NCBI GenBank assembly: GCA_017612755.1 | Contig: JAGAFH010000006.1 | Location: forward strand, 1-16,732 | DNA: 16,732 nt | Direction of reading: 5' to 3' | Source of the DNA: Clostridiales bacterium | GTDB taxonomy: Bacteria; Bacillota; Clostridia; Saccharofermentanales; Saccharofermentanaceae | Part shown: in pieces, positions 1 through 16,520 of the stretch | How positions within the stretch are numbered: the stretch's first letter is position 1 | How the letters are laid out: each line of letters starts with the position of its first letter | Translations under genes and position numbers: made by a program | The notes under the pieces: generated by a model | The model's database searches: none | What the model was told of the DNA's origin: nothing | What the model saw: only the letters and a program-made list of their open reading frames with translations

Positions 1-2
1 AC

Positions 3-605
3 GGTGATACAGGCGGACTTACAGAGCACTTCGTTTATAACGTAAGGACCCTTGAGAGACTCGGTGTTTCCGCTGTCATCATCGAGGACAAGACAGGTCT
101 TAAGAAGAATTCCCTCTTCGGCACAGAAGTTGCCCAGACCCAGGATTCCATCGAGAACTTCTGTGCAAAGATCTCTGCAGGTAAGGCTGTCCAGAGAACA
201 GATGATTTTATGATCATCGCTAGATGTGAGAGCCTTATCCTCGAGAAGGGTCAGGAAGATGCCCTTGAGAGATGCCACGCTTATGTTAAGGCCGGCGCTG
301 ACGGTATCATGATCCACTCAAGACAGAAGAGCCCCAAGGAGATCTTCGATTTCTGTGATGCTTTCCGTGAGACTGATAAGACAACACCCATCGTTGTTGT
401 TCCCACATCCTTCAATGAGGTAACAGCCGAGGAGCTGGCTTCCCACGGCATCAATATCATCATCTATGCTAACCAGATGCTCCGTGCAGCATACCCCGCA
501 ATGACACATGTTGCAGAGTCTATCCTCAAGAATCACAGAAGCGCTGAGATCGAGGGAGAGATCATCCCCTTCAAGCAGATCATCCGCATCATCGACGAAC
601 TTTAA
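3..605 (+). CDS. aepX: Phosphoenolpyruvate phosphomutase, 5'-truncated by window edge
   Basis: Cytosolic enzyme that rearranges phosphoenolpyruvate to phosphonopyruvate, the C-P bond-forming entry step of nearly all known phosphonate biosynthesis. The frame is open from base 3; only the last 200 residues are present, with the N-terminal part of the barrel outside the window. The first visible residues, GDTGG, fit the end of the Asp-x-Asp-Thr-Gly metal site. They are followed by EDKTGLKKNS, the PEP-mutase signature that separates this branch from isocitrate lyase-type relatives. The expected arginine (IIARCES) and histidine (GIMIHS) of the active site are also present, so the visible part looks functional. 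The stop codon sits inside the Shine-Dalgarno of the next gene (AAGGAG, 604-609), implying co-transcription with the cytidylyltransferase. The phosphonopyruvate decarboxylase and aminotransferase expected for aminoethylphosphonate are not in this window and may lie upstream. Family assignment is very secure; the final phosphonate is not determined. Confidence 0.95.
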   Translation, partial: GDTGGLTEHFVYNVRTLERLGVSAVIIEDKTGLKKNSLFGTEVAQTQDSIENFCAKISAGKAVQRTDDFMIIARCESLILEKGQEDALERCHAYVKAGADGIMIHSRQKSPKEIFDFCDAFRETDKTTPIVVVPTSFNEVTAEELASHGINIIIYANQMLRAAYPAMTHVAESILKNHRSAEIEGEIIPFKQIIRIIDEL

Positions 606-614
606 GGAGCAGTT

Positions 615-1319
615 ATGGAGATCGGAATACTGATGGCGGCAGGTATGGGAACGAGGATGAGACCTCTTACAAATACCATGCCCAAGCCCCTTGTAAAAGT
701 ACACGGAGTCCCCATGATCGAGACGGTCATCAAAGGCCTGAAGCTTCGGGGCGTTGAAGAGATATATGTGGTAACCGGATATCTGGGAGACCAGTTCGAT
801 TATCTTACGGAGAAATATCCCGAACTTAAGATCATCAGGAATACTGAGTATGAGACCATCAACAACATCTCTTCCGTTCATGCTCTCGGCGATATTATGG
901 GCAGGGCAGACTGCTTTATCTGCGAGGCCGATCTTTATATAACCGACCATTCCTTCTTCACCGTTGACCACAGTAAGTCCTGCTACTACGGCAGGATGGT
1001 GGAGGGATTCTCAGGAGACTGGGTATTCGATACGGACGAAAACGGAAGGATCACCAGAGTAGGAAAGGGCGGAACGGATGACTATAACATGGTAGGCGTG
1101 TCCTATATGAAAAAGGAAGATGCTGCCATTATCCGTGACGCTATAAACGAGGCTTATACAAAGCCGGGTTACGAAGATCTTTTCTGGGATGACATTGTAA
1201 ATATGAACCTGGATAAGATCGATATGGAAGTCATCCCCGTAACAGGAGACCAGATAGTTGAGATCGACTCCGTAGCTGAGCTCATAGAAGTCGACGACAG
1301 TTATAAGGGAGTTATCTGA
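615..1319 (+). CDS. pntC: LicC/PntC-type CTP:phosphonate (or phosphocholine) cytidylyltransferase
   Basis: A 234-aa nucleotidyltransferase of the GT-A-like sugar-nucleotide pyrophosphorylase fold. The N-terminus carries the signature LMAAGMGTRMRPLT followed by PKPLV (K24); EADLYI (D106) supplies the usual metal aspartate; FWDD (190-193) and EIDSVAELIEVDDSY near the C-terminus match the LicC/PntC branch. LicC makes CDP-choline from phosphocholine, while PntC makes CMP-2-aminoethylphosphonate from CTP and the phosphonate. The PEP mutase gene only 9 nt upstream is the reason to prefer a phosphonate substrate; this is inference from context, and phosphocholine or another small phosphate ester cannot be excluded by reading alone. 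The start is supported by AAGGAG five bases before ATG. Length is normal for a stand-alone enzyme, with no fusion to PEP mutase or an aminotransferase as seen in some organisms. Confidence 0.82.
   Translation: MEIGILMAAGMGTRMRPLTNTMPKPLVKVHGVPMIETVIKGLKLRGVEEIYVVTGYLGDQFDYLTEKYPELKIIRNTEYETINNISSVHALGDIMGRADCFICEADLYITDHSFFTVDHSKSCYYGRMVEGFSGDWVFDTDENGRITRVGKGGTDDYNMVGVSYMKKEDAAIIRDAINEAYTKPGYEDLFWDDIVNMNLDKIDMEVIPVTGDQIVEIDSVAELIEVDDSYKGVI
1305..1311 (+). promoter_or_regulatory. Shine-Dalgarno site fixing a GTG start
   Basis: AAGGGAG lies inside the last codons of the cytidylyltransferase gene, 10 nt before GTG at 1322. It supports the GTG start two bases after the preceding stop codon, and so translational coupling of the two genes. 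Confidence 0.7.
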
Positions 1320-1321
1320 CA

Positions 1322-2593
1322 GTGGCAGGACAGTTTCTTTACATCGATCCCGGAACGGGCAGCATGCTGTTTTCGATACTTATCGGTATCATCGGCGTTG
1401 CTGTTTATTTCCTCAGGACCCTTTTCGTAAAGATAAAGTTTATCATCTCCGGCGGTAAGCAGGCTAAGCTGGATATGGGCAAGCTCCCCATCGTCATCTT
1501 CTCCGACCACAAGAGATACTGGAATACTTTTGAGCCTATCTGCGATGAGCTGGAAAAGAGGGGAGTCGAGGCATATTTCTGGACTGCTTCCCCTGACGAT
1601 CCTGCTCTTTCCAAGGGTTATGAGCACATAAAGTGTGAATTCATAGGTGAGGGCAACAAGGCTTTCTCAAGGCTTAATCTTCTTAACGCAGACATAGTCC
1701 TGGCAACAACACCCAGCCTGGACGTCTTCCAGTGGAAGAGGTCTAAGAACGTTAAGTGGTATATCCATATTCCTCATTCCCCCGGAAATGTAAATATGTA
1801 CAGGATGTTCGGTATCGATTACTTTGATGCCATGCTCCTTTCCGGAAAACACCAGGAGGAACAGACCAGACAGCTGGAAGAGCTTCGAAAGCTGCCTGCC
1901 AAGGAAATCGAACTGGTGGGACTTCCTTACTGGGATGAGATGTACAAGAGGATAAAGGCTTCCGATGTGAAGAAGCACGATGGTCTTACAGTGCTCCTTG
2001 CACCGTCATGGGGACCTTCAAGCATCCTCAACGTATATGGTGAGAGATTTATAGATGAACTTATAAAGACGGGATATAACATCGTCATCAGACCTCATCC
2101 CCAGTCCTTTACGGCTGAGAAGGAGACTATGGACAGACTGATGGCCAAATATCCCGATGGTGAGAAGGTAGAGTGGAACAGGGATAATGACAACTTCGAT
2201 ATCCTTTCCAGAGCCGATATCCTCATCTCTGATTTCTCCGGAGTGCTCTTTGATTTCTCCCTTCTGTTTAACAAGCCTGTTATGTATGCAAATGCAGATA
2301 TCAATATGGATCCTTTTGATGCCTGGTGGATCGATGAGACCCCCTGGACCCTCCGTATCCTGCCTAAGCTGGGTAAGGCCATCACGAATGAGTCTATGGG
2401 AAATCTCAAGAACATGATCGACGAGTGTATCAATGATCCCCAATACGAAAAGAACAGGGACGAGGTAAGAAAGGATGCCTGGCAGCATCCCGGACAGTCG
2501 GCATCGCTGATCGCCGATTATCTCGTAAGGAAGCTGGCTGAGCTGAACCAGCCTAAGGAAAAGAAAGAAAGCAGCGAAAACGAAGCTGCCTGA
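1322..2593 (+). CDS. Membrane-anchored CDP-glycerol glycerophosphotransferase-family protein, copy 1
   Basis: A 423-aa member of the TagB/TagF-like family, which transfers a phospho-alcohol unit from a CMP-activated donor to a lipid-linked or polymeric acceptor at the inner membrane face. Residues 7-14 (YIDPGTGS) lead into one hydrophobic helix (about 15-35) and a basic stretch, so the protein is probably tethered. The catalytic region shows RPHPQS (H259) and ADILISDFSGVLFDFSL (D304, S306), the two best conserved family motifs. The usual HGT-type motif appears replaced by HIPHSPG (H152). Translation starts at GTG 1322. About two thirds of residues match the next gene, so the pair is a tandem duplication. 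Lying directly behind the cytidylyltransferase, it could use CDP-glycerol or, by chemical analogy, CMP-aminoethylphosphonate; the donor is unproven. Confidence 0.85.
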   Translation: MAGQFLYIDPGTGSMLFSILIGIIGVAVYFLRTLFVKIKFIISGGKQAKLDMGKLPIVIFSDHKRYWNTFEPICDELEKRGVEAYFWTASPDDPALSKGYEHIKCEFIGEGNKAFSRLNLLNADIVLATTPSLDVFQWKRSKNVKWYIHIPHSPGNVNMYRMFGIDYFDAMLLSGKHQEEQTRQLEELRKLPAKEIELVGLPYWDEMYKRIKASDVKKHDGLTVLLAPSWGPSSILNVYGERFIDELIKTGYNIVIRPHPQSFTAEKETMDRLMAKYPDGEKVEWNRDNDNFDILSRADILISDFSGVLFDFSLLFNKPVMYANADINMDPFDAWWIDETPWTLRILPKLGKAITNESMGNLKNMIDECINDPQYEKNRDEVRKDAWQHPGQSASLIADYLVRKLAELNQPKEKKESSENEAA

Positions 2594-2624
2594 TAAATAA
2601 AGAATTAAGAAAGAGGACAGAAAA

Positions 2625-3953
2625 ATGCAGATGCTTTATATCGATCCCGGAACGGGAAGCATGTTATTCACTATTCTTATAGGTGTATTCGGAGTAGGTG
2701 TTTATTTCCTCCGTACCCTTATAATGAAGATCAAGTTCATCATCTCCGGCGGCAAGCGCGAGAAGATGGACGGTAACAGACTTCCTATCGTTATCTTCTC
2801 GGATAACAAGAGATACTGGAATATCTTCGAACCCATCTGTGACGAGTTTGAGAAAAGGGGACAGGAAGTCCACTACTTCACTGCATCCTCTGACGACAAG
2901 GCTCTCGAGAAAAAGTACGAGCATATAAAGGCTGAGTTCATTGGTGAAGGAAACAAGGCTTTCTCCAAGCTCAACCTCCTCAATGCAACACTTGTCCTTT
3001 CAACCACCCCCAGCCTTGATGTCTTCCAGTGGAAGAGATCAAAGGAAGTTCAGTACTATGTGCACATTCCCCATGCTGCAGGAGATATCACTATCTACAG
3101 GATGTTCGGTATCGATTTCTATGATTCCATCCTTCTTTCAGGTCAGTTCCAGATCGATCAGCTCAAGAAGCTCTGGGAGATCAGAGGTGTCCCCGTTAAG
3201 GAGATGGAGCTGGTAGGAATCCCCTACATGGATGAGATGAAGAAGAGGGTAGATACAAATAAGTATGTAAGAAAAGAAGGAGAAGTTCCCACTGTCCTTC
3301 TGGCACCTTCCTGGGGTCCTTCCTCCATCTTCGCTTACTATGGCGGTAAGATCATCGATGAACTCCTTAAGACAGGATATAAGGTAGTAGTAAGACCTCA
3401 CCCCCAGTCCTTCGAGTCTGAGAAGGAGATGATGGATGAGCTTATGAGCAAGTATCCCAACAGCGACAAGCTGGAGTGGAACAGGGATACGGATAACTTC
3501 GATGTCCTCAACAGATCCGATATCCTTATCTCCGATTTCTCCGGTGTCCTCTACGATTTCTCCCTTGTATTCGATAAGCCCATCATCTATGCAGATACAT
3601 CTTTCGACAAGTCAGTTTACGATGCCGCATGGCTGGAGGACGATCTCTGGACATTCAGCATCCTTCCTTCCCTTGGACAGCAGCTCTCAGAAGATAACAT
3701 CGGTAAGATCAAGGATGTTATCGACGAGTGCATGAACGATCCCAAGTATCAGGCAGGAAGAGACAAGGCCAGATCCGAGACATGGGTATACATGGGTGAA
3801 GGCGCCAAGAGAACTGTCGATTACATGATGAATAAGTACAATTCCCTGGTGGAAGAGTCCCGTAAAAAAGCTGAGAAAGAAGCTGCAAAGCTGGGATCCA
3901 AAAAGAAAAAAGATAAAGAGAAGAAAGGTAAGGAAGAGGCGAAAAAGAAATGA
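2625..3953 (+). CDS. Membrane-anchored CDP-glycerol glycerophosphotransferase-family protein, copy 2
   Basis: A 442-aa paralog of the preceding gene with the same architecture: YIDPGTGS (5-12) plus a membrane helix, then the transferase domain with HIPHAAG (H150), RPHPQS (H259) and DILISDFSGVLYDFSL (D304, S306). All motif residues are kept, so both copies are probably active, perhaps on different acceptors or donors. The clearest difference is a C-terminal tail of about 33 residues (410-442) made almost entirely of lysine, glutamate and alanine, ending in repeated KKK; copy 1 has only a short, less basic tail. Such a tail could bind phospholipid headgroups or an anionic polymer (inference). 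The start is ATG 2625 with AGAGG eight bases upstream. The stop overlaps the next start (ATGA, 3950-3953), indicating coupled translation with the first YidC-like fusion gene. Confidence 0.85.
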   Translation: MQMLYIDPGTGSMLFTILIGVFGVGVYFLRTLIMKIKFIISGGKREKMDGNRLPIVIFSDNKRYWNIFEPICDEFEKRGQEVHYFTASSDDKALEKKYEHIKAEFIGEGNKAFSKLNLLNATLVLSTTPSLDVFQWKRSKEVQYYVHIPHAAGDITIYRMFGIDFYDSILLSGQFQIDQLKKLWEIRGVPVKEMELVGIPYMDEMKKRVDTNKYVRKEGEVPTVLLAPSWGPSSIFAYYGGKIIDELLKTGYKVVVRPHPQSFESEKEMMDELMSKYPNSDKLEWNRDTDNFDVLNRSDILISDFSGVLYDFSLVFDKPIIYADTSFDKSVYDAAWLEDDLWTFSILPSLGQQLSEDNIGKIKDVIDECMNDPKYQAGRDKARSETWVYMGEGAKRTVDYMMNKYNSLVEESRKKAEKEAAKLGSKKKKDKEKKGKEEAKKK

Positions 3954-6712
3954 GTTTTCTTACTGCTCTTTATACGGTATTAATAAAGCCTCTTGAGCTT
4001 ATATTTGAAATCATCTTCTCAATAAGCAACAGGATCGTACACCATCCGGGTCTTGCGATCATCTTCTTGAGCCTTGCCATGAACTTCCTGGTACTGCCTT
4101 TGTACAAAAGGGCAGATGCAATGCAGGAAGAGGAGCGAAAGACAGAAGAGAAGATAGGCCCCTGGCAGGAGAAGATCAAGAAGACCTTCAAGGGCGATGA
4201 GCGTTTCATGATGCTCCAGGCTTTTTACCGGGAAAATAACTATAAGCCTACGGATGCGCTTAAAGGATCCCTTTCCCTTATGCTGGAGATACCTTTCTTT
4301 ATCGCAGCCTACAGGATGCTGTCATCATTAAAGCTCCTGCAGGGAGTAAAGTTCGGCCCTATCGCCGATCTGGGAGCTCCGGATCACATGATCGTCATTG
4401 GTGCACTGGCCATAAACCTTCTGCCCATCCTTATGACCCTCATAAACATCATCTCCAGCGCTATCTACACCAAGGGACTTCCCACAAAGGCAAAGGTACA
4501 GCTTTACGGAATGGCCCTTATCTTCCTGGTGTTCCTTTATAATTCCCCGGCGGGACTTGTATTTTACTGGACACTTAACAACCTGTTCTCCCTTGTGAAG
4601 AACATCTTCTATAAGCTTAAGAACCCGAAGCTGGTACTGTCCGTAATGGCAGCGCTTGCAGGTCTTGCAGTGGCTCTTTATACAATAATATGCAGCAGTT
4701 CCATGTACAGCCACAGGATAGTAAAGCTCCTGATCTTTGCTGCAGCGCTTCTCATTCCCATCGTCCTTTATTTCTTAAAAGGGAAGATGAAGACGAAGGA
4801 AAGAGCAGCCTTTACGCCTGACAAAAAGGTGTTCTTTTTCGGATGCACATATATTATGGCCCTTACGGGACTTCTGATCCCGTCAGCCCTTCTGGCATCC
4901 TCGCCCACAGAGTTTGTTACCCAGTATCTTTTCTTTGATCCTAACTACTATCTGTGGTTCTCGGCCCTTACTGCGGCGGGACTCTTTATGGTGTGGATGG
5001 GATTTTTCTATATCCTTGCAAATGACACGGGAAAGCACATCATGGGTATCGTGGCCTTTGCCCTGGCCGGTGTCTTTACCGCTGACTATATGTTCTTCGG
5101 AACAAAGCTCGGAAGCGTATCCAACAACCTTCAGTATGAAGTAAAGCCCGAGTATTCTGCAAAGACCCAGTTGATCAACCTTCTGGTGGTCGTCCTTGTG
5201 GCAGCAGTCTTTGTAGTGATATTCAAGTTCTGGAAAAAGGGAGTGCCCCTTATCCTTCTTACGGCTACCCTGGCTATCGTTGGAATGTCCATAGTCAATA
5301 TGAACAAGGTCTCCAAGGGATATATGAAGGTTGATTATTATGTCCAGGAAGAAGATCCGGTCATAACCCTGAGCAAGGACGGAAAGAATGTCATAGTTCT
5401 CATGCTGGACAGAGGAATAGGAACGCTTGTCCCTTATCTTTTAGCCCAGAATCCTGAACTTGAGACCCAGTTTGACGGTTTTACATATTATCCCAATACT
5501 GTGGCAACAGGTATAAGGACTAATTTTGCCATGCCTGCCCTTACAGGCGGATACGAATATACAGCCGGCGCCATGAACAGAAGAGATGATATGCTCCTTA
5601 AGGATAAGACGGATGAGGCGCTTCTCGTCATGCCGGTACTGTTCTATGAGAACGGATATGATATCACTGTCTGCCAGCCTACTCTGGCAGGTTATTCCTG
5701 GGATCCGGATCTTTCCATCTATGATGATTATCCTGATTTCAACCTCTATATCACCAAGGGATATTTCAATGAATATAATGAACTCTTAAGTGGAGAGGAG
5801 AAGGCTCTTAAGGAGAGGAACATGTTCCTTTACAGCCTTTTTAAGGTCTCTCCCTGCCTTATCCAGGGTACAGTTTATAATGAGGGCCTTTATAATGATG
5901 CTGACCTTAATGCCGGTATCATGCATGTTAACGAGGACGGCACTGAGCTGTCTGTAATGCAGACTACTGACGGCCTTTACCGGGCATCAGGCCTTAACAA
6001 CAGATATATGAACGAGTATTCGGTCCTTACAAATATGATAAATATGACTCAGATATCTGACGACCCGGAAGGCAACTTCCTCTTCATGACTAACGATGCA
6101 TGCCACGAGCCCACGCTTCTTCAGCTGCCGGACTATACGCCCCAGATGAACGTGGACAACAGCGCATATATCATGAATCCTGAAGACTATACTATCGACG
6201 GCGTTAACCTGGAGATGGACAATGTGGACCAGGTGGCCCATTTCCATGTAAATATGTCAACATTTATGCTCCTGGGCGACTGGTTTGATTACCTTCGCGA
6301 ACAGGGTGTATATGATAATACCAGGATCATTATCGTAGGAGACCACGGAAGGGATGTCCACCAGATCGAACAGCTGGAGATATCTTCCGTCGGTATAGAT
6401 GCTGAATTTGCCAATCCTGTCCTTCTTGTGAAGGATTTCGATTCCGAAGGATTTGTTACTGACGATACATTTATGACAAATGCGGATGTTCCAACCATTG
6501 CTCTTTCAGGTATCGTGGAAGATCCCGTAAATCCTTTCACCGGAAATCCCATCAACAGTGATCCCAAGTTTGAGGGACCCATCGAAGTGATCTATTCCGA
6601 TTATTACGACATAGACGTAAATAACGGAAATGTCTTCATGCCCGGATTCTGGTACAGCGTACATGATGATATCTATGACGAAAACAACTGGGAGTATTTG
6701 GGGTTCTACTGA
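3950..6712 (+). CDS. YidC-like membrane domain fused to alkaline-phosphatase-superfamily phosphotransferase, copy 1
   Basis: A 920-aa integral membrane protein. Residues 1-226 match the YidC/Oxa1 core: HPGLAII-LSLAMNFLVLPLYKRADAMQ, KTFKGDERFMMLQAFYRENNYKP, LMLEIPFFIAAYRMLS, and FLVFLYNSPAGLVFYWTLNN. The pore-facing arginine of insertases (E. coli R366) falls on N45. Residues about 228-455 contain roughly six or seven further hydrophobic segments. Residues 475-920 form an extracellular domain of the LtaS/EptA/sulfatase superfamily: NVIVLMLDR (D487), a threonine before a small-residue motif (T524 in GIRTNFAMPALTGG, probable nucleophile), NDACHEP (H719) and IIIVGDHGRD (D798, H799). Such domains transfer phosphoglycerol or phosphoethanolamine-like groups, or hydrolyse phosphate or sulfate esters. 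There is no cleavable signal peptide; the start is ATG 3950 with AGGAAGAGG about ten bases upstream. The role in surface-polymer assembly is inferred from neighbours. Alternatively it could be a hydrolase. Confidence 0.88.
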   Translation: MSFLTALYTVLIKPLELIFEIIFSISNRIVHHPGLAIIFLSLAMNFLVLPLYKRADAMQEEERKTEEKIGPWQEKIKKTFKGDERFMMLQAFYRENNYKPTDALKGSLSLMLEIPFFIAAYRMLSSLKLLQGVKFGPIADLGAPDHMIVIGALAINLLPILMTLINIISSAIYTKGLPTKAKVQLYGMALIFLVFLYNSPAGLVFYWTLNNLFSLVKNIFYKLKNPKLVLSVMAALAGLAVALYTIICSSSMYSHRIVKLLIFAAALLIPIVLYFLKGKMKTKERAAFTPDKKVFFFGCTYIMALTGLLIPSALLASSPTEFVTQYLFFDPNYYLWFSALTAAGLFMVWMGFFYILANDTGKHIMGIVAFALAGVFTADYMFFGTKLGSVSNNLQYEVKPEYSAKTQLINLLVVVLVAAVFVVIFKFWKKGVPLILLTATLAIVGMSIVNMNKVSKGYMKVDYYVQEEDPVITLSKDGKNVIVLMLDRGIGTLVPYLLAQNPELETQFDGFTYYPNTVATGIRTNFAMPALTGGYEYTAGAMNRRDDMLLKDKTDEALLVMPVLFYENGYDITVCQPTLAGYSWDPDLSIYDDYPDFNLYITKGYFNEYNELLSGEEKALKERNMFLYSLFKVSPCLIQGTVYNEGLYNDADLNAGIMHVNEDGTELSVMQTTDGLYRASGLNNRYMNEYSVLTNMINMTQISDDPEGNFLFMTNDACHEPTLLQLPDYTPQMNVDNSAYIMNPEDYTIDGVNLEMDNVDQVAHFHVNMSTFMLLGDWFDYLREQGVYDNTRIIIVGDHGRDVHQIEQLEISSVGIDAEFANPVLLVKDFDSEGFVTDDTFMTNADVPTIALSGIVEDPVNPFTGNPINSDPKFEGPIEVIYSDYYDIDVNNGNVFMPGFWYSVHDDIYDENNWEYLGFY
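4067..4626 (+). repeat. Near-identical 560-nt block, unit 1 (YidC-like core)
   Basis: This stretch encodes residues 40-226 of fusion copy 1 and aligns without gaps to 6833-7392 in copy 2 (offset 2766). By hand count about 22 of 560 bases differ, nearly all silent; the only amino-acid change from residue 41 on is T179 to I. Just outside the block the two genes diverge clearly. Confidence 0.85.
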
Positions 6713-6715
6713 TAT

Positions 6716-9463
6716 ATGTCTTTTTTAACTGCGCTTTATACACTTCTTATAAGACCTTTGGAGCTCTTATTTGAGATAATATTCTGCATGGCAAACAGGA
6801 TCGTTCATCATCCGGGCCTTGCAATTATTGCATTGAGCCTTGCCATGAACTTCCTGGTACTGCCCCTGTACAAAAGGGCAGATGCCATGCAGGAAGAGGA
6901 GCGTAAGACAGAAGAGAAGATAGGCCCCTGGCAGGAGAAGATCAAGAAGACCTTCAAGGGTGATGAGCGTTTCATGATGCTCCAGGCTTTTTACCGGGAA
7001 AATAACTATAAGCCTACGGATGCGCTTAAGGGATCTCTTTCCCTTATGCTGGAGATACCTTTCTTTATCGCAGCCTACAGGATGCTGTCATCCTTAAAGC
7101 TCCTTCAGGGAGTAAAGTTCGGCCCTATCGCCGATCTGGGAGCTCCGGATCACATGATAGTCATAGGTGCCCTGGCCATAAACCTTCTGCCCATCCTTAT
7201 GACCCTCATAAACATCATCTCCAGCGCCATCTACACCAAGGGACTTCCCATTAAAGCTAAAGTACAGCTTTACGGAATGGCCCTTATCTTCCTGGTGTTC
7301 CTTTACAATTCCCCGGCGGGACTTGTATTTTACTGGACACTCAACAATCTGTTCTCACTTGTGAAGAACATCTTCTATAAGCTTAAGAACCCCAGGCTTA
7401 TCCTGGCCGTCATGTCTGCTCTTGCAGGCGTTGGCATCATAGGATATTCGGTATTTAAGCATAATGATCTTTATACCCAGAGATTTGTCAGACTGTTGAT
7501 CGTGGGGATCCTCTTTCTTATTCCCCTTGCGGTCATCATCCTTAAGAAGCATGTTTCCTTCCCAAAGAAGGATCTTTTGGGCAGGGAGAAGGCGAGAGCC
7601 TCACTCTTCTTTTTTCCTGCTCTGTTCATGACGGTCTTTACGGGACTTCTTATCCCCTCTGCAGTGATCGAATCTTCCGTTGCCGAGTTTACGGATCCCG
7701 CTGCCATGGCAGATCCCGTAAGGTATCTTTATTATTCAGGATGTATCGCGGCCGGCTATTTTATTATCTGGTTTGGTTTTTTCTATCTTCTTGCTTCGGA
7801 GACGGGGAAGAAGATCATGGGAATGATCTCATCTTCGGCAGCGGTAGTCTTTGTAGTGGATCATATGCTCTTCGGAAATGACCTGGGAACCCTTTCGCCT
7901 TCCCTGAAATATGAGGTCAAGCCTGAATATTCCGCAGCTAAACAGCTTATAAACCTGGTGGTCCTCTTTGTGGTCATCGCACTGGTGGTGCTGGCAGTCA
8001 GATTTCTGGGGAAGCAGACATCCTTTGTTATCATGGCAGCCTGCCTTGCTGTGGCAGGCATGTCAGTCATGAATATGAATTCCATATCAAAAGAGTATAA
8101 GACACTCGATTATATGGCGGATCAGAGTGAGACTCCCGAGTTTACCCTGAGCAGGGAAGGGCAGAATGTAGTGATCATAATGCTGGACCGTGCCCTGGGA
8201 GCCCAGATCCCTTATATCCTTAACGAGAGACCTGAGCTGATGGAGCAGTTTGACGGTTTCACCTATTATCCTGACACTTTATCCTTTGGCGGATATACTA
8301 TTTTCGGAACGCCACCTCTTTACGGAGGATATGAATATACCCCTGAGAATATGAACCTTAGAAGCGAAGACTCCCTGGAGGTAAAGCATGACGAAGCTTT
8401 GAGGGTAATGCCTTATCTTTTTGACGACAACGGATTTAATGTCACAGTCTGCGACCCCTCCTATGCGGGATATAAATGGACGCCGGATCTTTCCATCTAT
8501 TCTGATCATCCGGACATAAACACATATATAACGAATAATAAGTTTAACGACCTGGCGGATACATTGTCCGGCGGTACCGAGAGGATCAGGGAGAGAAATT
8601 TTTTCTTCTATTCCATCTTCAGATGCGCGCCTCTGCTCCTTCGCGGTAATATCTACAATCTGGGCGCATATAACGAGGCGGATCTTTCCAGCAGGATAGT
8701 GGCCTCCCAGTCTGTTGACAGCATGTCCGTAGCATCGGGATATGATCCTCTGTTTATGAATGCATATTCCGTTCTGGCCTGCCTTGACCAGATGACCATC
8801 ATAGATGAGGGGGGAAGCGACAACTTCCTTCTTATGACGAACGATACTACCCATGAGCCCACACTTCTCCAGGAGCCGGACTATACACCGGAGGCCTATG
8901 TCAACAATACGGAATTCGACCGGGATATGGAGCAGAGATATACCATTGACGGCAGGACCATGAGGATGGATAATTCCATGAGGATCATGCACTATGACGT
9001 AAATATGGCGGCTCTGATCCAGCTGGGAGAGTGGTTTGACTACTTAAGGGAACAGGGTGTCTATGACAACACCAGGATCATAATCGTATCTGATCACGGC
9101 CGCGATATCGGCCAGTTCGATGATATGAAATTCTTCGACGGGGACCTTGACGTGGAACAGGTAAATCCTCTTCTGCTGGTCAAGGATTTTGATGCGGATG
9201 GATTTACGGTATCCGATGAGTTCATGACAAACGGTGATGTCCCTGTACTGGCTTTTGACGGCCTTATCGAAGACCCGGTCAATCCTTTTACCGGAAATCT
9301 TATAACTAATGAAGACAAATATAGCGGAGATCTTCATGTCTTCCATTCTGACATGTGGTCTATCGATGATAATAACGGAAATACATTCTTAAGTGACGAC
9401 TGGTACAGCGTTCACGACAGTATATTTGAGGAGGAGAACTGGGAGTATTTGGGGTTCTATTGA
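6716..9463 (+). CDS. YidC-like membrane domain fused to alkaline-phosphatase-superfamily phosphotransferase, copy 2
   Basis: A 915-aa paralog with the same three-part layout. The YidC-like core (1-226) is almost identical to copy 1, including N45 in place of the insertase arginine. The following transmembrane section (about 227-456) is much more diverged. The extracellular domain keeps all superfamily ligands: NVVIIMLDR (D491), threonine T528 in GGYTIFGTPPLYGG, NDTTHEP (H713) and IIIVSDHGRD (D793, H794). The C-terminus NWEYLGFY is shared with copy 1. ATG 6716 begins three bases after the upstream stop; only a weak GGGG at 6700-6703 can act as ribosome site, so translation is probably coupled to copy 1. 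Retained active-site residues argue for function rather than decay. The acceptor and donor are unknown; it may act on a different polymer or position from copy 1. Confidence 0.88.
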   Translation: MSFLTALYTLLIRPLELLFEIIFCMANRIVHHPGLAIIALSLAMNFLVLPLYKRADAMQEEERKTEEKIGPWQEKIKKTFKGDERFMMLQAFYRENNYKPTDALKGSLSLMLEIPFFIAAYRMLSSLKLLQGVKFGPIADLGAPDHMIVIGALAINLLPILMTLINIISSAIYTKGLPIKAKVQLYGMALIFLVFLYNSPAGLVFYWTLNNLFSLVKNIFYKLKNPRLILAVMSALAGVGIIGYSVFKHNDLYTQRFVRLLIVGILFLIPLAVIILKKHVSFPKKDLLGREKARASLFFFPALFMTVFTGLLIPSAVIESSVAEFTDPAAMADPVRYLYYSGCIAAGYFIIWFGFFYLLASETGKKIMGMISSSAAVVFVVDHMLFGNDLGTLSPSLKYEVKPEYSAAKQLINLVVLFVVIALVVLAVRFLGKQTSFVIMAACLAVAGMSVMNMNSISKEYKTLDYMADQSETPEFTLSREGQNVVIIMLDRALGAQIPYILNERPELMEQFDGFTYYPDTLSFGGYTIFGTPPLYGGYEYTPENMNLRSEDSLEVKHDEALRVMPYLFDDNGFNVTVCDPSYAGYKWTPDLSIYSDHPDINTYITNNKFNDLADTLSGGTERIRERNFFFYSIFRCAPLLLRGNIYNLGAYNEADLSSRIVASQSVDSMSVASGYDPLFMNAYSVLACLDQMTIIDEGGSDNFLLMTNDTTHEPTLLQEPDYTPEAYVNNTEFDRDMEQRYTIDGRTMRMDNSMRIMHYDVNMAALIQLGEWFDYLREQGVYDNTRIIIVSDHGRDIGQFDDMKFFDGDLDVEQVNPLLLVKDFDADGFTVSDEFMTNGDVPVLAFDGLIEDPVNPFTGNLITNEDKYSGDLHVFHSDMWSIDDNNGNTFLSDDWYSVHDSIFEEENWEYLGFY
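6833..7392 (+). repeat. Near-identical 560-nt block, unit 2 (YidC-like core)
   Basis: Partner of the block at 4067-4626. Identity is about 96 percent by hand count with no indels, while flanking sequence in the same two genes is far less similar. The third paralog's corresponding region (about 9587-10146) is clearly diverged and not part of this near-identity. Confidence 0.85.
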
Positions 9464-9469
9464 TGTGAA

Positions 9470-12238
9470 ATGAATTTCTTTACTGCATTATACCTTTTGA
9501 TAATAAGACCGCTGGAGCTTATGTTCGAGATGATATTTGCCGTCACGAACAGACTTGTTCCTCATCCCGGTATCGCCATAATCTTTTTGAGCCTGGCTGT
9601 TAACTTTCTCGTGCTGCCTCTTTACAGGAGAGCAGATGCCATGCAGGTGGAAGAACGTGACAAGGAAGCCGGGATGGCTGAGGGCATCGCACACCTGAAG
9701 AAGACTTTCAAGGGCGATGAGCGTTTTATGATGCTCCAGACTTACTACAGGCAGAATGACTACAGTCCGACCCACGTTCTTAAAGGTTCGGTCTCTCTTT
9801 TCCTTCAGATACCTTTCTTCATGGCGGCGTACAGATTCCTTTCCGGAATGAAACTGATCAGAGGAGTATCCTTCGGCCCGATCAGGGATCTGGGAGCTCC
9901 CGATGCCATGTTTACCATAATGGGTTTTGACATCAACATCCTTCCCATACTTATGACCCTGATCAGTCTGGTGTCAGCTTATATCTACACCAGGGGACTT
10001 CCTGCCAAGTCCAGGATCCAGCTTTTCGTAATGGCTGCCTTCTTCCTGGTCTTCCTTTATAATTCCCCTTCGGGTCTTGCTTTTTACTGGCTTCTTAATA
10101 ACGTTTTTTCCATGATGAAAAATATATTCTACAGACTTAAGCGTCCGGGGCTGGTACTCTCTGTTATCGCTGCAGTCTGCGGAGCTTTGCTGATGGCATA
10201 TGCCCAGACATCCCATACCTATACTTCCAGGGTGGTCAATCTTACATTGGCAGGCATCGCCCTGGTCGTCCCCTTTGTTCTTGTGCTCTTTAAGGACAGG
10301 CTTCCTAAGATCAGGGTCGCTGATGCAAAGAAGGGAAACGGAGCCCTTTTCTTCCTGGGAGGACTTCTGGCATCTGCCCTCACCGGCATGCTGATCCCTT
10401 CGGAGGTTATGAAGACTTCTCCTGAGGAGTTTATCGACGAGATGACATATCACACACCCAATATCTATATCCTGTATTCGGGACTGATCGCCCTGGGACT
10501 TTTTGTGGTGTGGATGGGATTTTTCTATATCCTGGCTGCCCCTGCTGCAAAAAACCTTATGACCACCGGAATCCTTCTTATGGATGCGGTCTTTGTTACG
10601 GACTATATGTTTTTCGGGAAAGGTCTGGGCCAGCTCAATAACACACTGGTATTTGAAAAGGAGATCTTTTATTCCGGGCATCAGAAACTTATAAACCTGG
10701 CGGTACTTATAGTGGTGATCGCTGTTCTCGCATTTGTATTCATTAAGTTCAGAAAGATCGCTTTTGCAGTTGTCCTGGCGGGGGTCATTGCCGTTATCGG
10801 AATGTCCATTCCCAATATGAATAAGGTGCAGAGGGCTTTTTATAAAATGTCCTACATCAGGAAGAGCAATCCCCAGGCTACGATACCGTTGAGCACTGAA
10901 GGAAGAAATGTGGTAGTCATCTTCATGGACAGAGCTATCGGATGTTTTGCACCCTATATCTTTAATGAGGATCCCGATCTTCTCGAGCAGTTCGACGGGT
11001 TTACATATTATTCAAACTCCGTCGCTTTCGGATGCCATACCAAGTTTGCCGCAATGGCCCTGGAGGGAGGATATGAATATCTGCCCTGGCAGATAAACGA
11101 AAGGTCGGACGATCTTCTCGTAGATAAACAGAATGAGGCCCTTAAGGTAATGCCGGTGCTTTTCGACGAGAACGGCTTTGAGACTACCGTATGTGACCCG
11201 CCTTTTGCGGGATACAGGTGGACGCCGGATCTTTCCATCTATGACGACTATCCCGATATAAGGGCTTTTAATACGGAGGGCGCTTTTAATGATCTCAATG
11301 CCGAGTTCTCCCTTCAGACAGAAGTCATAAGGCAGCGGAATTTCTTCTGTTATTCCCTGTTTAAGGTGGTTCCCGTGGCATTTCAGGAGACCATCTACAA
11401 CAAGGGTATCTATAACAGGGTAGACGCGGATTATGATTACGAGGAGAATGATGATTTCACCCTGGGCCAGAGCAGGGACGGTTATCTGTCCTCAAACGGT
11501 GTTGAAGCAGAGTTTATGAACGCGTATACCGTCCTTACAAATCTTGATTATATTACTGATATACAGGATTCCGATGAGGATACTTTCCTTTTCTTTGCCA
11601 ACAATACCACCCACTGTATGCAGCTTTTGCAGGAACCGGAATATGAGCCCAGACAGCATGTTGACAATGTGGACTATGACGACGGGAACTGGGACAGGTT
11701 TACTGTAAACGGCAATACCTTGTTTATGGATTCCGATTGGAATATGATGCATTACCAGATAAACATGGCCTCATACAGGGAACTGGGTGACTGGTTCGAT
11801 TACTTAAGGGAACAGGGAGTTTATGACAATACAAGGATCATAATATGTTCCGATCACGGATTTGACCTGAATCTTTACGATTATGCAGAAATGCATGATG
11901 ATCTTGATTTCAACATCTGTTTTGTAGACTGCCTGCTTATGGTCAAGGACTTTGATGCGGAAGGATTTACCGTGTCCGATGAATTTATGACCAATGCGGA
12001 TGTACCGTATCTGGCAACCGAAGGGGTCATAGATGATCCGGTCAATCCCTTTACCGGAGCGCCTCTTTCCATGGATTATAAGAACGATGGGGATCTTCTT
12101 ATCTGTTATTCCCACGACTTTAATGTATCTGATGATCTGGCAGACGGGGCGACACAATTTGCCCGCTGCGGATGGTACAGGGTCGTTCCGGGAGATATAT
12201 ATGATCTTGATAATTACTCTTATGCAGGTTATTCATAA
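9470..12238 (+). CDS. YidC-like membrane domain fused to alkaline-phosphatase-superfamily phosphotransferase, copy 3
   Basis: A 922-aa paralog, the most diverged of the three. The YidC-like core is recognisable throughout (KTFKGDERFMMLQ, IPFFMAAYRFLS, FLVFLYNSPSGLAFYW) and again has asparagine (N45) at the insertase arginine position. Middle transmembrane helices span about 228-450. In the extracellular domain the key residues are present: VVVIFMDR (D487), T524 in GCHTKFAAMALEGG, NNTTHCMQ (H715) and ICSDHGFD (D795, H796). However, the motif neighbours differ: THEP of the other copies becomes THCM, the DHGRD arginine becomes phenylalanine (F798), and the proline after the nucleophile is lost. 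The C-terminus (about 880-922) is also unlike NWEYLGFY and has its own sequence with a cysteine. This suggests a changed substrate or acceptor. The gene starts at ATG 9470, six bases past the stop of copy 2. Confidence 0.87.
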   Translation: MNFFTALYLLIIRPLELMFEMIFAVTNRLVPHPGIAIIFLSLAVNFLVLPLYRRADAMQVEERDKEAGMAEGIAHLKKTFKGDERFMMLQTYYRQNDYSPTHVLKGSVSLFLQIPFFMAAYRFLSGMKLIRGVSFGPIRDLGAPDAMFTIMGFDINILPILMTLISLVSAYIYTRGLPAKSRIQLFVMAAFFLVFLYNSPSGLAFYWLLNNVFSMMKNIFYRLKRPGLVLSVIAAVCGALLMAYAQTSHTYTSRVVNLTLAGIALVVPFVLVLFKDRLPKIRVADAKKGNGALFFLGGLLASALTGMLIPSEVMKTSPEEFIDEMTYHTPNIYILYSGLIALGLFVVWMGFFYILAAPAAKNLMTTGILLMDAVFVTDYMFFGKGLGQLNNTLVFEKEIFYSGHQKLINLAVLIVVIAVLAFVFIKFRKIAFAVVLAGVIAVIGMSIPNMNKVQRAFYKMSYIRKSNPQATIPLSTEGRNVVVIFMDRAIGCFAPYIFNEDPDLLEQFDGFTYYSNSVAFGCHTKFAAMALEGGYEYLPWQINERSDDLLVDKQNEALKVMPVLFDENGFETTVCDPPFAGYRWTPDLSIYDDYPDIRAFNTEGAFNDLNAEFSLQTEVIRQRNFFCYSLFKVVPVAFQETIYNKGIYNRVDADYDYEENDDFTLGQSRDGYLSSNGVEAEFMNAYTVLTNLDYITDIQDSDEDTFLFFANNTTHCMQLLQEPEYEPRQHVDNVDYDDGNWDRFTVNGNTLFMDSDWNMMHYQINMASYRELGDWFDYLREQGVYDNTRIIICSDHGFDLNLYDYAEMHDDLDFNICFVDCLLMVKDFDAEGFTVSDEFMTNADVPYLATEGVIDDPVNPFTGAPLSMDYKNDGDLLICYSHDFNVSDDLADGATQFARCGWYRVVPGDIYDLDNYSYAGYS

Positions 12239-12279
12239 ATGATATTATCTATAGGAAACAGGAATTAAAGGGATATTGT

Positions 12280-12999
12280 ATGTTCAGTTTAGTTGTACCG
12301 GCTTACAGGGAAGGAAAGAGCATTAGATGCAATCTGTTAAAGATGGCAGCTGTTCTCAGGGATGCCGGAATCGACTATGAGATCGTGGCTGTAAATGACG
12401 GCTCCCCTGACAACACATATGATGAGATCGTTAAGGCCTCGGAAGAGGATCCTTCCATCTGTCCCGTTACCTATGACGTGAACAGGGGAAAGGGCGGCGC
12501 CATCAAGGAAGGAATTATGATGAGCAGTGGCGATATCTTCGGGTTTATAGATGCTGATCTTGATATCGATCCCGATCATCTGCCCGTATTTCTTGAAAAG
12601 ATGACCTCTTCCGGATCCGACGTGGTGATCGGAAGCAAGATGCACCCGGAGTCACAGCTTGATTACCCGGCCATGAGAAGATTTGTATCCTGGGGATATT
12701 ATGTTATCCTTAAAGTCCTTTTCGGCATGAAGACAAAGGACACACAGACAGGTATCAAGCTTTATAAAGGGAGCCTCATAAAGGAGATAGTCCCGAAACT
12801 CAAGGTGAACGGGTACGCCTTTGACATAGAGATACTGGCTCTTGCAAACAGCAAAGGCGCAGTCATCACTGAGATGCCTGTCAGGGTGGGATATACAAGA
12901 GACGAATCTTTCGGTAGAATTAGGTTTAAAGATATATGGAAGATGTTTACCGATACCATAGGTATCTGGTGGAATCTGAGGATCAGGAAAAAATATTGA
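12280..12999 (+). CDS. GT2 glycosyltransferase, polyprenyl-phosphate sugar synthase type (ALG5/DPM1-like)
   Basis: A 239-aa GT-A fold enzyme expected to move glucose or mannose from a nucleotide sugar to undecaprenyl phosphate on the cytoplasmic face. Visible motifs run in family order: SLVVPAYREG at the N-terminus, VNDGSPDNT (D40), NRGKGGAIKEG (69-78), the metal motif DADLDIDP (D91, D93), DTQTGIKLY (154-162) and GYAFDIEIL (178-186). The last two are characteristic of dolichyl/polyprenyl-phosphate glucose and mannose synthases. There is no C-terminal transmembrane tail, unlike GtrB/DPMS types. The start is supported by AAAGGGAT ending about seven bases before ATG. The stop overlaps the manA start (TGATG), so a mannose-derived product is attractive, but sugar specificity cannot be read from the sequence. 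Confidence 0.85.
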   Translation: MFSLVVPAYREGKSIRCNLLKMAAVLRDAGIDYEIVAVNDGSPDNTYDEIVKASEEDPSICPVTYDVNRGKGGAIKEGIMMSSGDIFGFIDADLDIDPDHLPVFLEKMTSSGSDVVIGSKMHPESQLDYPAMRRFVSWGYYVILKVLFGMKTKDTQTGIKLYKGSLIKEIVPKLKVNGYAFDIEILALANSKGAVITEMPVRVGYTRDESFGRIRFKDIWKMFTDTIGIWWNLRIRKKY

Positions 13000-13946
13000 T
13001 GAGCGGTAATGAAAAGATAATAAAGCTTTCTGCTTCATATAAAGGTTATATCTGGGGCGGAAGAAGACTTATAGATGATTTCGGCATGGACTGCGGCCTG
13101 GACAGGCTGGCAGAAGCCTGGCTTGTTTCCGCCCATCCGGAAGGACAGTCCTCCGTCATAAGCGGCAAGGACGAAGGCATGATCTTCGGTGATTATATCG
13201 AGAAGTATTATCCTGAGATCACGAAGAAGGCTCTGTCTTCATCTGACAGATTCCCGCTTCTCGTTAAGCTCCTTGATGCCCAGTCAGATCTTTCAGTACA
13301 GGTACACCCGGACAATGAGTACGGCCTTGCCAATGACGGCCAGCCCGGCAAATCCGAGATGTGGCTCATCCTGGACAGCGCTCCCGGTGCCGGTATCTAT
13401 GTAGGTTTCAAGCAGGACATGACGGAAGAGGAAGTCATCTCTGCCGTTGAGGACGGAACGGTCCTCGAAAAGATGAATTTCTATCCCACATCAAAGGGAG
13501 AGGTATACTTTATCCCCGTAGGCACGGTCCACGCCATCGGCGCCGGAAACCTTATCTGCGAAGTCCAGAATTCAAGCACCTGTACATACAGGCTTTTCGA
13601 CTATAAGCGCACCGACAAGGATGGCAATATGAGGGAACTTCATCTTGATAAGGCACTCGCCGTTATGAACTACAGTAAGTTTGATGCGAAGGTGGAGCCT
13701 GACGGAACAGATACTATCCTCAGGTGCGATGACTTTATATGTGATCTTTATGAGGTCAGCGGTTCAAAAGAGATAGAGACGGATCCTTCAAGGTTTGACT
13801 GCCTTATCTGTGTAAGGGGATGCGTAAGTGCTTCTGCCGGTGATTCATGCGAGGAATTAAGCGCCGGTCAGTCTGCTTTCGTCGCTCCCGGTGTTTCAAA
13901 GATAACCCTTACGGGAGATGCGACGGTAGTCCTCTGTCACACCTGA
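12999..13946 (+). CDS. manA: Mannose-6-phosphate isomerase, class I
   Basis: Zinc-dependent cytosolic cupin that interconverts fructose 6-phosphate and mannose 6-phosphate, feeding GDP-mannose and mannosylation or allowing mannose catabolism. At 315 residues it has the short Bacillus-type length. The metal site is clear: SVQVHPDNEYG (Q101, H103), GKSEMW (E120) and GTVHAIGAG (H178), followed by EVQNSSTCTYRLFDY. The N-terminus SYKGYIWGG fits the family start. The frame is open upstream to an ATG at 12936, but that would place 21 extra residues inside the previous gene; ATG 12999 overlaps its stop by one base and has AGGA ten bases before it, so it is chosen here. The end overlaps the convergent MATE gene by 10 nt. 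Placement last in the operon suggests precursor supply for a sugar in the polymer. Confidence 0.9.
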   Translation: MSGNEKIIKLSASYKGYIWGGRRLIDDFGMDCGLDRLAEAWLVSAHPEGQSSVISGKDEGMIFGDYIEKYYPEITKKALSSSDRFPLLVKLLDAQSDLSVQVHPDNEYGLANDGQPGKSEMWLILDSAPGAGIYVGFKQDMTEEEVISAVEDGTVLEKMNFYPTSKGEVYFIPVGTVHAIGAGNLICEVQNSSTCTYRLFDYKRTDKDGNMRELHLDKALAVMNYSKFDAKVEPDGTDTILRCDDFICDLYEVSGSKEIETDPSRFDCLICVRGCVSASAGDSCEELSAGQSAFVAPGVSKITLTGDATVVLCHT

Positions 13947-15304
13947 CCTTTTTTAAGTTTTTTTATCCTTAATGCAAAAGCTAAGAGAATAAACACAGCG
14001 CAGACAGTCCAGATTATGGGCTCGCATATTACTATGCCCAGATATCCCAGCATAACGGAGAGTTTTTTCGCGGTGATGACCTTAAGGATAAGCTCCATGG
14101 CGCTGGCTATCAGAGGTACATATTTTCCGCCGATGCCCTGAAGGGTGTTCCTTGTTATCAGGACGACAGAGAGCACAAAGTAGAAGGGCAGATCGAACTT
14201 CAGATAGAAGGCCGCAGTATCTATGACCTCCGCATTGGAGGAACCTGACACGAGCCTGATCAGAAGAGGCCCTATCGTATAGACCATCAGTATGAGGAGC
14301 GCATCAAGGACAAAGGAACAGATCATGGTCTTTCTTAAGCCTTCCTTGACCCTGTCGAACTTGCCGGCACCGTAGTTCTGACCCCCGAAGGTGGCCATGG
14401 CGGTAGCAAGGGTGCCCACCATCATCATGCAGGGTTCAGAGAGTTTTCTTGCCATGGTATGGGCTTCGATGATCTCAGGCCCGAATCCGTTTATGGCGCT
14501 CTGAAGGATCAGGGTGCCTATATTTACGATGGAGAACATGAGCGCGAAGGCGAGACCTGAAGTAAAAAGGTCCGCGAGTATGGGCTTTGACAGCACCATA
14601 TCCTTCCGGCTGATGTGAAGTTCCGGTACCCTGATCATGATATAGACCAGTGCTATGAGGGCTGATACGGCCTGGGAAGCTGCAGTGGCAAAAGCCGCCC
14701 CGGGAAGTCCCCAGTGAAACTTCCTGATAAACAGAAGGTCCAGGCAGATATTGAGTGTGACCGATACAACCAGGATGTAAAGGGGAGTCCTGGAATCGCC
14801 GATGGCCCTCAGAAGTCCGGAGAGGATATTATAAGAGAAGGAAAAGCACACCAGGAGGATGACCACGGATATATAGCCGTAGGCCATGTCGTAAAGGGAC
14901 TCCGGCACGTTTAGAAGCCGGTTCATAAGAGGTCTGATGGAAAGAAAACCGGCCACCGTTATGAATGCGCCCCAGGCGATACCGATAAAGAGGGTATTCG
15001 CCACTGCCGTCTTAAGCTTCTTTTCGTCCTGGGCGCCGAAGTGCTTTGACACTACCAGGGAAAAGCCGTTGCCCATTCCGAAAAGAAGGGAATTAAAAAG
15101 GCCGAAGATGGTAGATACGGAACCGATGGCGGACAGGGCATCATCGCCTAAGGAGTGGCCGATGATGGATATATCAGTCAGGTTATAAAACTGCTGGAGG
15201 ATATTGCTCAGGTAGATGGGCAGTGCAAAAAGAAGGATCACCTTCAGCGGATCGCCTTTTGTAAGATCGGTTATATTGTTCTTTTTTCCAACTGCCGTAC
15301 TCAT
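13937..15304 (-). CDS. MATE family multidrug/metabolite exporter
   Basis: Cation-coupled efflux protein of the MATE (NorM/DinF) family, 455 aa with about twelve hydrophobic segments. N-terminal NLTDISIIGHSLGDDALSAIGSVS and, at the matching place in the second half, MARKLSEP-MMMVGTLATAMATFGGQNYGAGK are typical of the two pseudo-symmetric halves. The first possible ATG (minus strand, 15313-15311) leaves only one or two bases to the ribosome site; the second ATG (15304-15302) sits about ten bases from AAGGAT, so it is preferred. The gene is transcribed against the phosphonate/polymer operon and tail-overlaps manA. Its own promoter lies in the intergenic region shared with the HD gene. Exported substrate is unknown, and there is no direct evidence that it serves the neighbouring pathway. 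Confidence 0.92.
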   Translation of the reverse strand: MSTAVGKKNNITDLTKGDPLKVILLFALPIYLSNILQQFYNLTDISIIGHSLGDDALSAIGSVSTIFGLFNSLLFGMGNGFSLVVSKHFGAQDEKKLKTAVANTLFIGIAWGAFITVAGFLSIRPLMNRLLNVPESLYDMAYGYISVVILLVCFSFSYNILSGLLRAIGDSRTPLYILVVSVTLNICLDLLFIRKFHWGLPGAAFATAASQAVSALIALVYIMIRVPELHISRKDMVLSKPILADLFTSGLAFALMFSIVNIGTLILQSAINGFGPEIIEAHTMARKLSEPCMMMVGTLATAMATFGGQNYGAGKFDRVKEGLRKTMICSFVLDALLILMVYTIGPLLIRLVSGSSNAEVIDTAAFYLKFDLPFYFVLSVVLITRNTLQGIGGKYVPLIASAMELILKVITAKKLSVMLGYLGIVICEPIIWTVCAVFILLAFALRIKKLKKGQV

Positions 15305-15314
15305 GTTTCGCATT

Positions 15315-15320
15315 ATCCTT
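15315..15320 (-). promoter_or_regulatory. Ribosome binding site deciding the MATE start
   Basis: On the minus strand AAGGAT lies ten bases before the ATG at 15304-15302 but only one base before the alternative ATG at 15313-15311. It is also one arm of a perfect 6-bp inverted repeat with a 4-nt loop (15315-15330) that could partly mask it. Confidence 0.6.
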
Positions 15321-15364
15321 ATTAAAGGATTATTAATCTATCACATCCATAATAAAATTGTCAC

Positions 15365-15380: not shown

Positions 15381-15384
15381 TTTC

Positions 15385-15412: not shown

Positions 15413-15444
15413 CAGTTTAGTGACCTGAAGAGAGGCGGAAACAG

Positions 15445-16519: not shown

Positions 16520-16520
16520 C

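Follow-up and report, generated by a model that had tools for sequence, protein, structure and literature searches.

We find that three adjacent genes in a 16,732 nucleotide stretch of DNA from a Clostridiales bacterium (positions 1–16,732 of the forward strand of contig JAGAFH010000006.1, assembly GCA_017612755.1; the whole stretch is referred to here as the window) each encode a fusion of a YidC/Oxa1-like membrane core, additional transmembrane (TM) helices and an outside domain of the alkaline phosphatase (AP) superfamily, and that the fusion and a CDP-alcohol phosphotransferase together make up a core of two genes. The substrate class of the module can be read from neighbouring genes for the supply of phosphonate or choline head groups, and neither this nor the partner had been recognised in the original prediction, which was made from the letters of the window and described the fusions. 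We propose that the three genes encode paralogous outer-face transferases in a system by which a head group, phospho or phosphono, would be brought from a CMP or CDP donor in the cytoplasm to the cell surface, a proposal whose chances we put at about even. Each module belongs to a known family, and the new elements are the partner that usually accompanies the fusion, a substrate class that can be read from neighbouring genes, and a swap of partners between two protein architectures.

The coordinates and lengths originally given for the three neighbouring genes, which occupy positions 3950–12238 of the + strand, were exact (fusion 1, 3950..6712, 920 aa; fusion 2, 6716..9463, 915 aa; fusion 3, 9470..12238, 922 aa). 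The YidC/Oxa1 relation suggested for their N-terminal part was also confirmed, with Pfam 60KD_IMP and NCBIfam yidC_oxa1_cterm scoring above their cut-offs in all three (60KD_IMP E 9e-25, 2e-24 and 2e-22 for fusions 1–3 over residues 34–221; yidC_oxa1_cterm 87–89 bits, cut-off 84.3). The cores are encoded at 4049..4612 in fusion 1 (PF02096 88–93 bits), 6815–7378 in fusion 2 and 9569–10132 in fusion 3, and the best PDB sequence matches of the fusions are the solved YidC proteins of Escherichia coli and Bacillus halodurans. The mean hydropathy of 106 sequences, judged by eye, has the five YidC helices followed by seven more, and the same hydropathy and charge profile places the acidic C-terminal domain outside, with the cytoplasmic loops mostly basic. 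In fusion 1, TM8–12 correspond to residues 293–450 (five helices; 4826..5299) and the outside AP-superfamily domain to residues 475–920 (5372..6709).

Pfam Sulfatase matches this outside domain weakly (17.2, 20.9 and 27.8 bits for fusions 1–3, of which the third alone passes the cut-off of 25), and the reality of the AP domain is carried by alignment. Residues ~293–848 (profile columns 294–849) match separate TM plus sulfatase proteins (hhalign Prob 99.6, E 3.3e-24), and T524, D798 and H799 line up with the Thr and the DHG of these separate AP proteins. D487, T524, H719, D798 and H799 are invariant in 233/233 aligned fusions (some of these proteins and locus open reading frames (ORFs) share contigs), and together with the hydropathy this bears out the earlier claim of extra TM helices and an extracellular domain of this superfamily whose ligands are intact. 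Among characterised proteins, the AP part has profile matches to a phosphonate monoester hydrolase (2w8s, E 1.4e-4) and, weakly, LtaS (4uoo, E 0.013), and by analogy we assign Thr524 as the putative nucleophile and the Asp and His residues as putative metal ligands. A literature search found no paper describing a YidC–AP or YidC–PF04464 fusion, in keeping with the statement of the original prediction that no characterised enzyme was known to it that joins YidC and AP domains (bioRxiv and most subscription journals were outside this search).

The partner is a TagF/TarL-like CDP-alcohol phosphotransferase (PF04464), and we refer to the proteins of this kind in these loci as GLYPHOS. The window encodes two, GLYPHOS 1 (1322..2593, + strand), which has a hydrophobic N-terminus forming a YIDPGTG membrane hairpin, and GLYPHOS 2 (2625..3953, + strand), and both exceed the curated PF04464 cut-off of 22.1 bits (44.5 and 44.1 bits, respectively). 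GLYPHOS 2 and fusion 1 overlap by 4 nt, with gaps of 3 nt between fusions 1 and 2 and of 6 nt between fusions 2 and 3, and because of this overlap and these short gaps we read the genes as one operon. When the GLYPHOS profile was compared with solved structures, it matched the TagF-like Cps3D (8qoy, E 2.9e-7) and TarL (8va1, E 0.0047).

The pairing was retained when we expanded our comparison to 79 loci containing 117 fusion ORFs (78 named genome loci plus the window, with fusion matches below 300 bits and GLYPHOS matches below 60 bits dropped). GLYPHOS was found in 72 of these, and in 69/79 it was on the same strand and within 250 nt of a fusion. Amongst 391 genomes of the class, a strong GLYPHOS was present in 11 of the 12 genomes having a strong fusion and in none of the 379 others (Fisher p 1.7e-20; strong means E <1e-100 for the fusion and E <1e-150 for GLYPHOS, cut-offs that were chosen after the lists were inspected). 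We note that the YIDP hairpin seemingly also occurs as a separate protein of 86–93 aa (L131:7696-7962, L146:9626-9886, L148:9361-9642 and L150:7265-7528), and that one AP protein seems to begin with it (L128:6781-9051); the letters were inspected in L131 and L128, and L146, L148 and L150 rest on the profile match.

The genes that precede GLYPHOS in the window point to the phosphonate 2-aminoethylphosphonate. The first encodes a phosphoenolpyruvate (PEP) mutase (ppm, 3..605, + strand, with the 5' end cut by the contig; PEP_mutase 138 bits) which matches TIGR02320 with 304 bits over positions 84–281 of 284, and falls below the cut-off of 319.55 because the gene is truncated. It carries EDKTGLKKNS, which agrees with the Ppm motif EDKXXXXXNS (PMC6697681; papers are cited here by PMC number). 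It is followed by a LicC/PntC-like nucleotidyltransferase (615..1319, + strand; NTP_transferase 49 bits, NTP_transf_3 44 bits) which groups with the LicC-like proteins of choline loci in protein clustering, and is probably a CTP:aminoethylphosphonate cytidylyltransferase given the adjacent ppm.

Supply modules stand beside the pair in 21 of the 79 loci, with choline modules in 17/79 and phosphonate modules in 4/79 including the window (licA and licB matches of ≤250 bits, HTH–LicC–LicA matches of ≤600 bits and ppm matches of ≤200 bits were dropped, including that of L059 with 39 bits). The recurrent neighbours by Pfam are choline kinase, an EamA permease which we take to be LicB, winged-helix nucleotidyltransferases, and triple proteins combining a helix-turn-helix (HTH) domain, a nucleotidyltransferase and a choline kinase. 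The aminoethylphosphonate aminotransferase (AEPT), phosphonopyruvate decarboxylase (Ppd) and PntC labels used below are presumptive, and follow family and context. When the GLYPHOS tree was inspected for head-group-specific clades, the choline loci clustered partly and the phosphonate loci were few and scattered; we read no specificity from this tree. As a separate observation, winged-helix domains are fused to LicC-like nucleotidyltransferases in L093:4588-6387, L133:1480-3249 and L067:16457-17356, with two of the three proteins having a choline kinase fused to them as well, which suggests a regulator built into the activation enzyme.

Both kinds of supply can occur within one genome. In genome G113, locus L181 has an unbroken run of fusion–GLYPHOS–PntC–AEPT–Ppm–Ppd genes, and ~60 kb away in L182 a second fusion and GLYPHOS face LicC and HTH–LicC–LicA genes. 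L182 also encodes a protein resembling a BCCT transporter and, at L182:12044-14853, proteins resembling a trimethylamine-type methyltransferase and a corrinoid protein, all judged by their first residues. Besides its phosphonate locus, the genome of the window contains a choline-type one (contig C67, L133), in which GLYPHOS is found together with LicA/LicC and a BCCT transporter, as well as a contig encoding a class-V aminotransferase, a thiamine pyrophosphate (TPP) enzyme and a cytidylyltransferase–PEP mutase protein (C55, L125). Positions 1–347 of C55 and of the window are 97.4% identical (9 mismatches in 347 bases), so that C55 is a possible continuation of the window; the two contigs may stem from different strains, or the phosphonate genes may have been duplicated recently. 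The PEP mutase of this genome is present as two truncated pieces. Across the class, PEP mutase was found in 10/12 fusion genomes compared with 22/379 others (p 1.9e-10), and it lies within ~5 kb of a fusion in five of the ten fusion genomes having both (at most two candidate fusions were scored per genome, and L181–L185 were chosen for their near coordinates).

Further analysis of distant GLYPHOS matches indicates that they are YidC–GLYPHOS fusions, a second architecture in which the YidC domain is joined to the cytoplasmic enzyme instead (four were scanned, with PF02096 108–118 bits and PF04464 37–57 bits). The search identified 7828 proteins with E ≤0.001 among 8000 scored, which may include ordinary YidC proteins of similar length; the best 120 relatives listed have 80–100% coverage, and 111 of these carry both Pfam domains. 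Ten YidC–GLYPHOS loci were compared, and a separate AP protein was found in six, PEP mutase in three and a LicC-like protein in six (two of the ten supplied the sequences for the AP profile, and the AP match in L129 lies at a distance of 2.2 kb and does not reach the Pfam cut-off). The separate AP proteins are those which align with the five helices and catalytic sites of the fusions, and the GLYPHOS parts of both architectures are homologous (E 8.9e-45). By sequence comparison the same three modules therefore appear as GLYPHOS plus YidC–AP, or as YidC–GLYPHOS plus AP, and because the YidC domain is joined to the cytoplasmic enzyme in one architecture and to the extracellular enzyme in the other, it is most plausibly placed between the two in the path of the substrate. 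It should be noted that we claim a swap of partners and not convergence, as the sequences would fit one or two origins of YidC capture. Two independent captures had been suggested by a quick tree, and a single-clade test did not reject one origin (p 0.593; the constrained tree had a log-likelihood 5.3 higher).

Fusions are found in named genomes which include Lachnospiraceae, Oscillospiraceae and Saccharofermentans metagenome-assembled genomes, as well as Schwartzia succinivorans, Solobacterium and Eggerthellaceae. In the cultured rumen commensals S. succinivorans DSM 10502 (L067) and Butyrivibrio sp. INlla21 (L106), the fusion occurs together with both GLYPHOS and phosphonate genes. Searching with fusion 1 gave 6434 proteins with E ≤0.001 among 8000 scored candidates, which again may include ordinary YidC proteins of similar length, and the best 120 relatives listed have 93–100% query coverage each. 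Among plasmid and phage records, none matches fusion 1 over 80% of its length, and the matches listed (the best 8 of 27 and the best 8 of 12) are to the YidC part only. The genome of the window, which is 70% complete, has twelve YidC-fold matches of which one is canonical, and by our own reading at least nine distinct fusion genes (some matches are at contig ends). This compares with one or two YidC-fold matches in 38 of 40 other genomes of the class and none in the remaining two.

Conservation varies along the fusions. Among 106 of them, mean pairwise identity reaches 72.4% for the YidC core and 52.2% for the AP domain, with 42.8% for TM8–12 and 30.7% for the TM6–7 linker, and fusions 1 and 2 of the window are 98.9% identical in the YidC core and 52.7% in the AP domain. 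The DNA of these two genes is 91% identical over the first 708 bases (3955–4662 compared with 6721–7428), and the identity falls near the domain border; we observed 63–66% in later pieces where they could be aligned. Gene conversion limited to the YidC domain of fusions 1 and 2 is the probable cause as judged from these sequences. More generally, the paralogues may share a donor module which is kept uniform, perhaps by gene conversion, and have outer domains that diverge for different acceptors. The division of labour among the copies suggested in the original prediction fits these values, because the core is conserved and the outer domains diverge.

The fusions also differ from YidC proteins at a key position of the membrane groove. 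HMMER alignments to 3wvf and 3wo7 indicate that Asn45 of fusion 1 (codon 4082..4084, + strand) replaces the basic groove residue (R366 in E. coli, and also basic in B. halodurans), which is described as strictly conserved and positively charged in YidC (PMC8920935). The position is Asn in 228 of 230 fusions, with Thr and Ser in one each (the other three of the 233 are gapped here), compared with R/K in 37 of 38 rows of canonical YidC (two of these, L022 and L153, are identical). The groove Arg is essential in Streptococcus mutans YidC2 (R73), which shares with the fusions a Trp at the neighbouring position, and it is dispensable in E. coli YidC if the Y517 position is aromatic or polar (PMC8920935); the matching residue of the fusions, W207, is Trp in 233/233. 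The Asn points to a lost or altered insertase function in these proteins, as read from the alignments.

We suggest that the module would work as follows. The supply genes, of which ppm and the nucleotidyltransferase gene are present in the window, would make 2-aminoethylphosphonate and activate it as CMP-aminoethylphosphonate (CMP-AEP), after which GLYPHOS would transfer this group from its nucleotide carrier onto a lipid of the inner leaflet. The YidC fold with Asn in its groove may no longer be mainly an insertase, and would let the charged head group or the whole lipid cross the membrane. Thr524 of the outer domain would attack the lipid phosphorus and free the lipid alcohol, and the head group would end up on a glycan or teichoic acid at the surface. 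LtaS acts on phosphatidylglycerol in a comparable way, its Thr attacking the lipid and diacylglycerol being released (PMC4192460). With a YidC donor module in common and outer domains that differ, the paralogues may serve separate acceptors or positions.

In its most specific form, this is a YidC/Oxa1 fold turned lipid flippase within a synthase–flippase–transferase machine for aminoethylphosphonate or phosphocholine, and wired to either the inner or the outer enzyme, which we put forward tentatively as possible rather than probable. Phosphatidylcholine has been considered as a possible head-group donor of PptA (PMC10434233), and in vitro scrambling of lipids has been demonstrated for YidC, Oxa1 and Get1 (PMC10491306). 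The lipid-facing platform or translocation groove of the original prediction fits the partner swap, the loss of the basic residue and this published scrambling, while for the fusions themselves we infer lipid flipping, the donor lipid and the acceptor from sequence.

Other roles for the YidC part would leave transport out. It might act in cis as an insertase or chaperone for the multi-helix transferase or its partners, which would agree with insertion being the known task of YidC, with the retention of the fold and many YidC motifs, and with W207 standing where an aromatic or polar residue makes the E. coli Arg dispensable. We consider this unlikely, as a separate canonical YidC is present in the genome of the window, the strictly conserved positive residue which is essential in S. 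mutans YidC2 is Asn in almost all fusions, and the second architecture joins YidC to GLYPHOS, which itself has no long helical membrane part there. Alternatively, the YidC part could be a mere scaffold or membrane-thinning platform which docks GLYPHOS by the outer transferase, with the lipid crossing through other scramblases. The partner swap speaks for this explanation, since it shows a coupling of modules and not transport, but YidC-family proteins scramble lipids in reconstituted liposomes (PMC10491306) and the YidC part is the most conserved of the fusion, which would be unexpected of a pure scaffold, and we give this explanation a similarly small chance. Finally, the module might produce a glycerol- or ribitol-phosphate teichoic acid, with GLYPHOS as CDP-glycerol polymerase, the fusion as lipoteichoic acid synthase, and phosphonate or choline added as decoration via LicD or GLYPHOS. 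The nearest solved relatives of the PF04464 proteins are TagF/TarL polymerases, the AP domain has its weak resemblance to LtaS, proteins of the LytR–CpsA–Psr type occur in 5/79 loci (one cluster member was scanned), and LicD is found in 16/21 genomes with either architecture. Against this, the recurrent cytidylyltransferases are LicC/PntC-like and stand beside choline kinase or PEP mutase, and there was no separate glycerol-phosphate cytidylyltransferase among the ten neighbour proteins scanned (no search was aimed at one); we consider such a teichoic acid module improbable as well.

A number of observations weigh against the head-group transfer we propose. Neither a choline nor a phosphonate module was seen in the examined stretch of 58/79 loci (six of these have a strong LicC-like gene alone), and 7/79 have no GLYPHOS in the examined stretch (in one, L108, just 105 bases precede the fusion). 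In G241, a complete genome, a fusion is present (L132:7447-10077) and a strong GLYPHOS is missing; we note that the gene preceding this fusion codes for a membrane protein of 760 aa, which matches DUF6541 below the threshold. The association with PEP mutase is partly one of shared descent, because nine of the eleven genomes of the window's genus carry it, and two of these nine, G200 and G329, are without a strong fusion (G329 has the second architecture). With this genus left out and both architectures counted, PEP mutase was found in 4/5 genomes compared with 19/375 others (p 5e-5). As LicD, the known outlet for CDP-choline, occurs in 16/21 genomes, CDP-choline has another possible user, and the acceptor used by GLYPHOS itself could be soluble or polyprenyl-linked. 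In the groove, one canonical YidC has Tyr in place of the basic residue, and the YidC–GLYPHOS proteins have Lys in 16/16; as these retain Lys, the step we propose does not depend on the basic residue being lost.

The proposed system can be compared with several known ones. In LtaS, EptA and PptA, as in the fusions, an outside AP domain comes after membrane helices, and the Thr nucleophile and Asp/His ligands of these enzymes have putative counterparts in the fusions; the donor of LtaS is a lipid head group (PMC4192460); in contrast, the fusions add a YidC core and two linker helices and pair with a cytoplasmic CDP-alcohol transferase. They share with YidC/Oxa1 insertases the 60KD_IMP profile, five core helices and a basic loop after the first helix, and differ in the groove Asn, in being part of an enzyme of some 920 residues and in the many copies of the window's genome. 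GLYPHOS resembles TagF and TarL in having PF04464 and aligning to Cps3D and TarL, but it has the YIDPGTG hairpin and usually neighbours the fusion, or is itself fused to YidC in the second architecture, and the supply genes beside it point to head groups other than those of CDP-glycerol and CDP-ribitol.

In the 17 choline loci, the permease-like, choline kinase and cytidylyltransferase genes correspond to those of the Lic-1 pathway (LicA, LicB, LicC and LicD), with GLYPHOS and the fusion occupying the place of LicD beside them, although LicD is still present in most of the genomes. The phosphonate genes likewise resemble the Pnt pathway in including Ppm with a cytidylyltransferase domain, a PntC-like enzyme and, presumptively, a decarboxylase and an aminotransferase. 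Nucleotidyl activation of phosphonates has been described for that pathway and its later steps termed enigmatic (PMC6697681); this paper names LicD-like transferases nearby, whereas YidC and sulfatase are absent from its main text.

Beyond the fusions, the window encodes a GT2-family glycosyltransferase (12280..12999, + strand; PF00535 90.6 bits), which from its position is possibly an acceptor-side gene. This is followed by a phosphomannose-isomerase-like protein listed at 12936–13946, the start of which overlaps the GT2 gene, with the true start probably at ~13000. In seven other loci (L041, L045, L057, L080, L082, L087 and L091), conserved genes after the module encode a CBS pair, a SASA esterase, an SCP2-like protein and an SDR protein, and the same run also holds a protein which we labelled radical-SAM by eye.

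If our proposal is correct, the insertase fold would also work as a translocator devoted to lipids, and the scrambling seen in vitro would thereby gain a physiological setting; only proof of the flipping step would make the system categorically new. Database names would also need changing, as the legible source names are YidC insertase or translocase for two of three relatives of the fusion and three of three of the second architecture. The module would further name the missing late steps of phosphonate tailoring, and provide gut and rumen bacteria with an alternative to LicD for phosphocholine.

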